Source of the DNA: a virus
Strand: one strand, 5' to 3'
DNA: 32,979 nt
IMG/VR virus record: IMGVR_UViG_3300042339_000752
Coordinates: 1 to 32,979 of that record
Shown: one piece after another, positions 15,975-16,986 of the stretch
Numbering within the stretch: the first letter of the stretch is position 1
How the letters are laid out: each line of letters opens with the position of its first letter
Translations under genes and position numbers: made by a program
The notes under the pieces: generated by a model
The model's input: the letters and a program-made list of their open reading frames with translations, nothing else
Database searches by the model: none
What the model was told of the DNA's origin: nothing

Positions 15975-16007
15975 TGTGGGTGCCTCCAACCGTTCACCGA
16001 TTGGAGG
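15975..16007 (+). promoter_or_regulatory. Hairpin that hides the integrase ribosome binding site, and 17-nt repeat copy A
   Basis: CCTCCAA (15983-15989) can pair with TTGGAGG (16001-16007) across an 11-nt loop. TTGGAGG contains the GGAGG for the ATG at 16012 (spacing 4). The 17-mer TGTGGGTGCCTCCAACC (15975-15991), which holds the pairing strand, is found again as its exact reverse complement at 16970-16986 past the attP core. Formation of the hairpin would block initiation at 16012. Confidence 0.6.
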
Positions 16008-16011
16008 TTTT

Positions 16012-16839
16012 ATGGAAGGTAAGACTTGGGACGAAGCCGCAAAGCGGTGGCTGGATGGACGGACCACTAAGTGGACCAAGCAGGAGCAGCACTATATAGA
16101 GGTGCTCTCGCACTACTTAGCTGGCCTGCCTCTTGGCCGTATCACAAAGGGGGTGTTGGCGGATCTTCGCGATGACATGCTGAAGACCCGCGCTGTGTCC
16201 ACCGTCAACCGTTACCTGACCGTACTGCGGTCAGTGCTAAACATGGCGCGGGACGAATGGGAATGGATCGACACCGTACCCAAGATCAAGAGGATGGAAG
16301 AGTCCTCGAGGATTAGGTACATCGACAAGGATGAAGCTCGTCGCCTGATCAGAGAGCTGCCGTCACATCTGAAGGACAAGGTTATTTTCGCCCTCACCAC
16401 TGGACTTCGGGACGCCAACGTCCGCGAGCTTCGGTGGGAAGAGGTCGACCTTCAGAACAAGATGGTGACAATCGAGGGGGTCAAGATGAAGAACGGGAAG
16501 CCGCTCTCGATCCCTCTGAATGACACCGCCTACGACGTTCTCTGGAAACGGTTCAGGGCCAAGGATAAGAACGCTGAGTGGGTGTTTGCGTATGGCGGCA
16601 AGCCAGTACAGCGCAGCAACACGAAGGCTTTCAGGAAGGCTCTGAAGAGGGCTGGGATAGAGAACTTCAGATGGCACGATCTGCGGCATACGTGGGCTTC
16701 GTGGCACATCCAGAAGGGTACTCATACCGCAGCCGTTCGCGAGATGGGTGGTTGGTCGGATGATCGCATGGTTCAGCGCTATGCACATTTGTCAACTAAG
16801 CATCTTCGCAAGGTAGCTGACAACATTGGCAGCTTGTGA
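16012..16839 (+). CDS. int: Tyrosine recombinase integrase
   Basis: 275 residues from ATG 16012 (GGAGG at 16003). Upstream in-frame starts at 15958 (AAAGG at 15942) and 15949 would add about 20 residues and may also be used. Residues 1-85 resemble a short SAM-like core-binding domain (WTKQEQHYIEVLSHYLAGLP, TVNRYLTVLRSVLNMARDEW). The catalytic domain carries R133 (TTGLRDANVREL), H222-D-L-R225 (WHDLRHTWASW), W248 (MGGWSDDRMVQRYAH) and nucleophile Y257. No obvious separate arm-binding domain precedes it, unlike lambda Int. It would recombine attP at 16925-16972 with a host tRNA-Gly gene. Convergent with the reconstituted tRNA. Confidence 0.95.
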   Translation: MEGKTWDEAAKRWLDGRTTKWTKQEQHYIEVLSHYLAGLPLGRITKGVLADLRDDMLKTRAVSTVNRYLTVLRSVLNMARDEWEWIDTVPKIKRMEESSRIRYIDKDEARRLIRELPSHLKDKVIFALTTGLRDANVRELRWEEVDLQNKMVTIEGVKMKNGKPLSIPLNDTAYDVLWKRFRAKDKNAEWVFAYGGKPVQRSNTKAFRKALKRAGIENFRWHDLRHTWASWHIQKGTHTAAVREMGGWSDDRMVQRYAHLSTKHLRKVADNIGSL

Positions 16840-16865
16840 GAGAGGAAGCAGAGGTAGCACCCAAC

Positions 16866-16874
16866 TGTGGATAA
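16866..16874 (-). promoter_or_regulatory. Exact DnaA box beside attP
   Basis: TGTGGATAA, the reverse complement of TTATCCACA, lies 26 nt after the int stop codon. A perfect 9-mer is expected by chance about once per several windows of this size, so it may be accidental, but the phage also encodes a DnaA domain IV protein. Confidence 0.35.
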
Positions 16875-16888
16875 CTACCTCTTTTTCC

Positions 16889-16920
16889 ATAACTTCCGTG
16901 AATAAAACCACGTAAGTTAT
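16889..16920. repeat. 12-bp inverted repeat left of the attP core
   Basis: ATAACTT-C-CGTG (16889-16900) and CACG-T-AAGTTAT (16909-16920) pair with a single mismatch around an 8-nt loop. It sits 4 nt from the core. It could be a binding site for integrase or an excisionase, or a 3' hairpin for RNA coming from either strand. No T tract follows. Confidence 0.55.
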
Positions 16921-16924
16921 TGAT

Positions 16925-16972
16925 TGGAGCGGGAAACGAGACTCGAACTCGCGACCCCGACCTTGGCAAGGT
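16925..16972 (-). other. attP core: 3' half of tRNA-Gly(GCC)
   Basis: On the minus strand these 48 bases match, from anticodon stem through T arm to CCA, the tRNA-Gly(GCC) of E. coli and many proteobacteria as I recall it. The anticodon GCC lies in CCTTGCCAAGG, and TTCGAGT is the T loop. The bases before it do not make a proper D arm, so it is not a complete tRNA. Integrases of this type use the 3' part of tRNA genes as attB, and the phage copy restores the gene on insertion. It starts 86 nt after int. The likely host site is therefore a tRNA-Gly(GCC) gene. Confidence 0.85.
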
Positions 16973-16986
16973 TGGAGGCACCCACA
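16970..16986 (-). repeat. 17-nt repeat copy B, exact inverse of copy A at 15975-15991
   Basis: The plus strand reads GGTTGGAGGCACCCACA, a perfect reverse complement of the integrase leader repeat. It straddles the right edge of the attP core by three bases. A nearby AAAACCTC (16992-16999) likewise mirrors GAGGTTTT at 16004-16011. It could be an integrase arm site, or an RNA partner of the int leader. Confidence 0.8.

Follow-up and report, generated by a model that had tools for sequence, protein, structure and literature searches.

The DNA analysed here is a virus record of 32,979 nt (IMGVR_UViG_3300042339_000752, positions 1 to 32,979; "the window" denotes this whole stretch), which encodes a tyrosine integrase gene, int, followed by a phage attachment site, attP. 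A 17-nt sequence (copy A) lies just upstream of int, and its exact reverse complement (copy B) lies just past attP; these two copies very probably represent, judging by sequence comparison, a functional RNA pairing tied to attP. The locus contains the following features.

15939..15968, + strand: predicted int promoter TTGAAA-18-TATGAT, sigma70-like (-35 at 15939-15944, -10 at 15963-15968)
15975..15991, + strand: copy A, predicted 5' end of the int mRNA (sequence match, position after the -10)
15983..16007, + strand: leader hairpin CCTCCAA...TTGGAGG, able to cover the Shine-Dalgarno sequence GGAGG (sequence reading; fold)
16012..16839, + strand: int, tyrosine integrase of 275 aa that begins at the core-binding domain (PF00589; phrog_1)
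16850..16888, + strand: stem-loop with a T-run following int, which might act as an early terminator (-19.7 kcal/mol, z -3.07)
16923..16972, - strand: attP core, formed by the 3' part of a tRNA-Gly (identical at all 50 bases)
16970..16986, + strand: copy B, complementary to A, just past the crossover (sequence match; pairing with A 0.974 in the full mRNA fold)
17084..17120, + strand: inverted repeat with 13-bp arms and a T-run, probable terminator past B

The match of the window integrase to the 611-position phrog_1 profile begins at position 164; against the longer integrase of locus L076, residue 5 of the window protein falls at residue 60. It lacks the extra N-terminal domain of its longer relatives, which we take to be the arm-binding domain. 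Three records match 16923-16972 at 100% identity, two of them annotated as tRNA-Gly, and no complete tRNA gene was found in the window. With phage genes on both sides of attP, the virus record has the unintegrated arrangement, and with the int stop at 16839 and the core downstream of it, att does not overlap the int promoter. A first-pass annotation of this DNA had put the core at 16925-16972 and B just past it; the location stands, whereas the core is 16923-16972 and B covers its last three bases before extending outward past the crossover. The same annotation had CCTCCAA within A facing the GGAGG of int, which is correct with adjusted positions: the hairpin arms are CCTCCAA at 15983-15989 and TTGGAGG at 16001-16007, GGAGG, the Shine-Dalgarno sequence, occupies 16003-16007, and int translation starts with the codon at 16012-16014. 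Within 16911-17020, phage-side sequence beyond the 3' segment of tRNA-Gly at attP rebuilds an acceptor-stem-like partner, CCGCTCC, and has an outer inverted repeat, CGTAAGT...ACTTACG, with strong folds on both strands (-43.5 and -40.8 kcal/mol). A GTAAGTNNNTGA-like motif directly precedes the tRNA 3' end in the window (16912-16924) and in L035, L060, L061, L064 and L309; it is common to phages with long and short integrases, though the short ones lack the extra N-terminal domain.

Copy A, TGTGGGTGCCTCCAACC at 15975-15991, and its reverse complement at 16970-16986 occur as reported earlier. They are the sole occurrences in the whole window, even when up to three mismatches are allowed, and two matches were seen in none of 100 dinucleotide shuffles of the window. 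The 17-nt inverted match is genuine; chance was ruled out by these shuffles and by the cross-pair and joint scan controls described below. A search of 15800-17300 against Rfam returned 18 matches with E up to 5, none of which reached the gathering score of its family. The 17-mer is also present in contig L026 (8438-8454, - strand), where the stretch read showed no int leader; locally, roughly 50 nt from the 17-mer, stands an inverted partner, TTGTGGGTGC.

Loci compared with the window carry L-numbers, L001 being the window itself, which belongs to the same clade as L006. Among the relatives with short integrases the partners vary jointly, with different-sequence A/B pairs in L012, L017, L035, L060 and L061. 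The window has GTGGGTGCCTCCAACC/GGTTGGAGGCACCCAC and L017 has GTGGACGCCTCC/GGAGGCGTCCAC; the pairs of L012 and L035 (Int 42% identical) include one G.U each, that of L060 consists of TGCTGGAGCC, two mismatches and then CGAC, and that of L061 of CGCATGGCGTTAAGTCCT with one bulge and a B located further out. The covariation for which the first-pass annotation had called is present in several lineages, complementarity being maintained while the sequence changes, and the sequence of the element turns over even among close Ints. In a table of 18 loci, the end of tRNA-Gly follows int in 12, all 12 of which have an anti-Shine-Dalgarno leader; the other six lack a tRNA-Gly attP after int, and there the leader element is absent in five and an anti-Shine-Dalgarno leader is found in one. 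Eight of the 21 related loci first gathered are omitted from this table: A/B is present in L003, L008, L018, L019 and L023 and was not seen in L015, L016 and L022, the last of which has a sequence that stops 28 bases into the post-int stretch viewed. A hairpin kept without the complementarity, the pattern that had been named as evidence against a switch, occurs in L010, which retains the anti-Shine-Dalgarno arm with a decayed toehold, but there attP and B are themselves gone.

Beyond these relatives, 16 of 58 non-redundant integrase loci reached a score of at least 26 in symmetric DNA scoring, as compared to 2.9% of 2320 cross pairs (59/2300 once pairs within the window clade are taken out) and to 2/58 loci in the direct orientation control. 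Longer-type integrases among the survey matches are those of L064 (24), L067, L076, L080, L215, L218, L221 and L223. One further locus, L114, scored 26 in this survey, was judged to be a chance match and was excluded from the -10, folding and wobble counts. A joint scan required a helix starting 5-7 nt after a -10 and a B located 20-260 nt past the int stop; its 70 loci, 13 of them named phages, are partly dependent (L229 is apparently Mana, and L280 is P22-like). At a threshold of 28 it found 23/70 loci versus 1.5% of 840 cross pairs and 0/70 on the wrong strand, and at 26 it found 29/70 versus 3.8% of cross pairs and 2/70 on the wrong strand. L067 and L080, which matched in the surveys with cross-pair controls, failed the joint scan (20.0 and 0).

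At 26, nine of the 13 named phages were positive (P22, HK542, 2G7b, APSE-2, EhrS_59, QDWS, D3, Medea1 and Mana), and GF-2, lambda, Lo5R7ANS and Jormungand fell below the threshold. In GF-2 the A/B pair was spotted by eye alone (joint score 19.6); in AP3, ST64T, BTP1 and PA-1, which are outside the joint scan sample, it was found by eye or in the partner-permutation set described below. Where attP is annotated (HK542, APSE-2 and D3), B lies some 34-43 nt past it. A scan of 17 named records with a long search region and annotated starts was not significant alone (P22 26, best shuffle 28); the pairs of QDWS, EhrS_59, D3, Medea1 and APSE-2 were correctly placed in later scans, and the records of S1249 and Omnitron stop too soon after int to hold B. 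As far as the sequences tell, the same architecture recurs with other sequences in P22-type integrases. A P22-like int leader also precedes intD of Escherichia coli BW25113 (561399-561490, 89% over 92 bases), and such leaders are found in 2443 of 5426 E. coli genomes. We found no description of int mRNA pairing across attP in the literature, a weak negative given thin coverage of subscription papers, and no statement on the int start site of BTP1 in the passages of PMC7067206 consulted.

Integrated prophages offer a view of the locus after crossover. A pattern scan for P22-type B elements gave at least 80 loci, and among the matches listed 6 of 80 had a P22-type leader, defined by a narrow pattern, within 1.7 kb upstream. 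Of 30 selected records searched for P22 Int, 20 contained it and 18 had a readable leader; in each of these 18 P22-type contigs B is on the int strand at a distance of approximately 35-48 kb, as expected of integrated prophages and as anticipated by the earlier claim that B leaves int upon integration. These contigs, together with P22, ST64T, 2G7b, PA-1 and six listed loci, formed a permutation set of 28 pairs (26 distinct), in which own A/B partners gave -743.1 as opposed to -662.8 (standard deviation 12.6) for permuted ones, with 0/5000 permutations as good. In the pair L447/L324 both partners changed jointly (GTGATCGGCGGC versus GTGATCGACGGC).

Differences between A and B bear on whether the pairing takes place in RNA. 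Copies of a protein-binding site are expected to show G.U-compatible and A.C-type transitions about equally, whereas their ratio was 19:4 (p 0.0013; symmetric scoring, 18 loci), or 17:4 (p 0.0036) in a G/A versus C/T version that allows for the GC-richer A; looser scorings gave 28:9 and 32:13. The direction of the bias is that of pairing in the int-sense strand, with the caveat that several loci were first detected by a G.U-tolerant score. RNA pairing is favoured over a DNA site because the differences prefer G.U over A.C, because wrong-strand copies are absent (0/70 versus 23/70 at 28, when arm-type sites would show no strand preference), and because the element stands beside an integrase without the extra N-terminal domain. 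The duplicated integrase arm site, which the first-pass annotation had offered as the simpler explanation, is disfavoured by the wobble bias, the strand preference and the short Int.

For such a pairing to occur, the int message would have to include both copies. The predicted promoter is the single promoter-like match in 15850-17200, where shuffles average 1.0, so it is weak taken alone; no other -10 in the 60-nt region around A scores higher. A starts 6 nt past this sigma70-like -10, a position that probably makes it the 5' end of the int mRNA. In 17/17 loci judged A/B-positive, too, the highest-scoring -10 in the 60-nt region falls 5, 6 or 7 nt before A, A starts having been set from complementarity before the -10 scoring; among the 17, the window, L012, L017 and L035 are homologous, and two -10s are weak (L080, 1.8; L229, GAGAAT). 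Downstream, the terminator claimed earlier at 17084 corresponds to an inverted repeat at 17084-17120 that does end in a T-run, although it is missing from the terminator scan of 15850-17200, which accepts loops of up to 8 nt against the 11 nt here. No terminator-like site was listed before B in the int direction in P22 and HK542, and the first such sites in their records, L309 (at 2644) and L300 (at 2594), are both past B. The int RNA may reach B in the cell.

The predicted effect of A on the ribosome site was assessed in 19 loci as the cost of opening positions -14 to +8 with A blocked or free. Blocking A lowers the cost by >1 kcal/mol in 16 of the 19 (mean 4.3), for example from 11.7 to 3.7 in P22, from 12.2 to 1.6 in HK542 and from 9.0 to 1.9 in L060; the exceptions are the window (0.7), L215 (0.4) and L067 (-1.4). 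Shuffled versions of A bury the site less than native A does (Fisher p 8e-7, each p floored at 0.005). In the window clade, CCTCC of A is predicted to face the Shine-Dalgarno sequence; in P22, HK542 and L280 the end of A faces the start codon, whose unpaired probability rises upon blocking of A from 0.02 to 0.99, from 0.01 to 0.53 and from 0.00 to 0.39, respectively. Across 20 folded leaders A ends 1-16 nt upstream of the Shine-Dalgarno sequence. The full-length window mRNA fold pairs A with B at a mean probability of 0.974, and in the same fold the start codon is less free with B (0.39) than without it (0.60-0.64). Over the group of loci the folds lean towards the earlier claim that A-B pairing frees the ribosome site; in the window, folding with and without B gave the predicted pairing and left the Shine-Dalgarno sequence almost unchanged. 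As the window fold predicts almost no effect, the sign of control rests on the group; according to these models, Int would most likely be made only from the free circle, when A pairs with B.

All 15 loci with longer Ints have an open reading frame (ORF) of 95-159 aa that spans A and overlaps the first 85-229 nt of int, and it is annotated as excisionase in ST64T and APSE-2; no such ORF was found in the short-Int loci (0/6). Translation of this xis-like ORF might open the leader.

Complementarity, the predicted +1 position, the wobble pattern, strand specificity and the placement of B past the crossover emerge from the comparison of sequences, and we consider it somewhat probable that A and B form an RNA switch through which the int message detects whether its attP is unbroken. 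In this scheme int would have its own promoter and a message starting at A. In the free circle that message would cross attP and contain B, with which its 5' end would pair. Unpaired A would fold onto the int ribosome site (the Shine-Dalgarno sequence in the window clade, the start codon region in P22 and HK542), and pairing with B would most likely open the site so that Int is made. An integration crossover between int and B would then move B to the other prophage end, and the leader would close. In P22-type phages, where the xis-like gene runs through A into int, ribosomes on long transcripts could open the leader, which would give Int plus Xis for excision and Int alone from the free circle only. 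That P22-type int messages act as recombination sensors through pairing of the 5' end with the far side of attP, yielding Int without excisionase in the circular state only, is a tentative extension for which we see slightly less than an even case.

Several observations weigh against the switch. In the window, the stem at about 16850-16888 with TTTTT before B could terminate the int transcript early; relatives viewed retain a stem between int and attP without the T-run. The opening cost there falls merely from 10.9 to 10.1 when A is blocked, and the effect of B on the Shine-Dalgarno sequence is negligible (unpaired 0.23 with B, 0.16 or 0.29 without). Accessibility of the Shine-Dalgarno sequence falls upon blocking of A in P22 (0.80 to 0.30), HK542 (0.99 to 0.59), L280 (0.99 to 0.63) and L035 (0.40 to 0.23), and the start codons of L067, L080, L210, L215 and L221 gain no accessibility from it. 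Lambda, Lo5R7ANS and Jormungand had no A/B in the joint scan. In the permutation set, an ungapped count over positions 5-12 was weakly better for own partners (170/208 versus 164.4 permuted, 245/5000), and L440/L319 and L444/L314 show an unmatched change each.

The element could also work with the opposite sign, the A:B duplex exposing free-circle int mRNA to RNase III or otherwise lowering its level, so that Int stays low until integration removes B. We regard this as unlikely: the sib-like geometry, with an element past attP acting on int (PMC5300877), duplex lengths of about 10-23 bp and the lack of predicted Shine-Dalgarno opening in the window all speak for it, but A buries the ribosome site in 16/19 loci and ends 1-16 nt before the Shine-Dalgarno sequence in 20 leaders, so the duplex would leave that sequence uncovered. 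Pairing might instead mainly stabilise the free-circle int mRNA by protecting its 5' end, with little effect on initiation. The location of A at the predicted +1 in 17/17 loci, which a mere ribosome-site switch would not need, and the small predicted effect in the window agree with such protection; leaders that bury the ribosome site more than shuffled ones do not, and it appears quite unlikely.

We give little credence to a DNA-site reading, with A as an operator at the int start that is bound by a repressor of int (Int, Xis or another protein) which binds B in the attP arm as well. In its favour, A and the promoter overlap, integrases are known to repress themselves where att and promoter coincide (PMC2951348), and in L064, L067 and L076 B overlaps a sequence like the GTAAGTTATTGA motif found beside attP. 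Against these stand the wobble bias of 19:4, the rarity of wrong-strand copies (0/70 at 28 and 2/70 at 26), the absence from the window of both the extra N-terminal domain in Int and the GTAAGT motif in A, and the turnover of the element sequence among close Ints. A chance match or a recent functionless duplication is extremely unlikely; a lone 17-nt match could come from copying, but the shuffle, cross-pair and joint-scan controls and the joint change in several lineages argue otherwise.

How a phage makes Int without excisionase, and makes it only when useful, has been worked out mainly for lambda. An RNA switch formed by A and B would point to another solution in P22 and many relatives, with an RNA element coupling Int synthesis to the integration state; if true, the int message would be a natural example of an mRNA sensing how its own gene is arranged, and well-known phages allow the idea to be tested. 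In prophages without annotation, the A/B signature should help to locate attP along with the start site and start codon of int. Toehold switches, and mRNAs such as icaR whose 5' and 3' untranslated regions pair, have a leader that hides the ribosome site and a complementary RNA that binds this leader; the icaR pairing inhibits. Copies A and B share with these an RNA complementary to a leader arm, and differ in that the partner acts in cis and DNA recombination decides whether it is there. By folding, the arm is predicted to cover the ribosome site in 16/19 loci as a group, weakly in the window, and with a reversed effect on the Shine-Dalgarno sequence alone in several loci.

The lambda sib element is a self-contained hairpin that is processed by RNase III and is negative for Int, whereas B is complementary to the 5' end of the message, and the sign here is probably opposite, the folds favouring a positive effect; lambda itself had no A/B pair in the joint scan. 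What is shared is the geometry: sib, according to PMC5300877, is a cis element past attP that acts on the int message and is cut off from int by integration, and B, too, is on the far side of attP from int, overlapping the final three bases of the core and extending outward. The A/B pair would be a variant form of integration-state control that shares the geometry of lambda sib but has a different element. KplE1 intS, according to PMC2951348, has an att that overlaps the int promoter and proteins that repress this promoter; int expression is tied to att architecture in both cases, but attP is downstream of int here, a layout for which the shapes that the paper calls SIT and OC predict no autoregulation. 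For ICEKp1, PMC13023037 describes an int promoter that switches with the integrated or excised state and stem-loops that attenuate transcripts. State-dependent int output and the importance of leader stem-loops are common to the two systems; the promoter changes there and the 3' end of the message here.

The gene before int (15579-15932, + strand) has a CsrA-like C-terminal stretch (PF02599, E 0.0085, below the cut-off), and its counterpart in L035 matches PF02599 at E 6.7e-6, just below the cut-off. The adjacency of a gene for a possible RNA-binding regulator to a putatively RNA-controlled leader is suggestive. Elsewhere in the window, an ORF of 665 aa at 4167-6164 (+ strand) has weak ribonucleotide reductase matches alone (E 1e-4 to 3e-6), and an ORF of 3092 aa at 17123-26401 (- strand) carries an LPD38 domain near its C-terminus.
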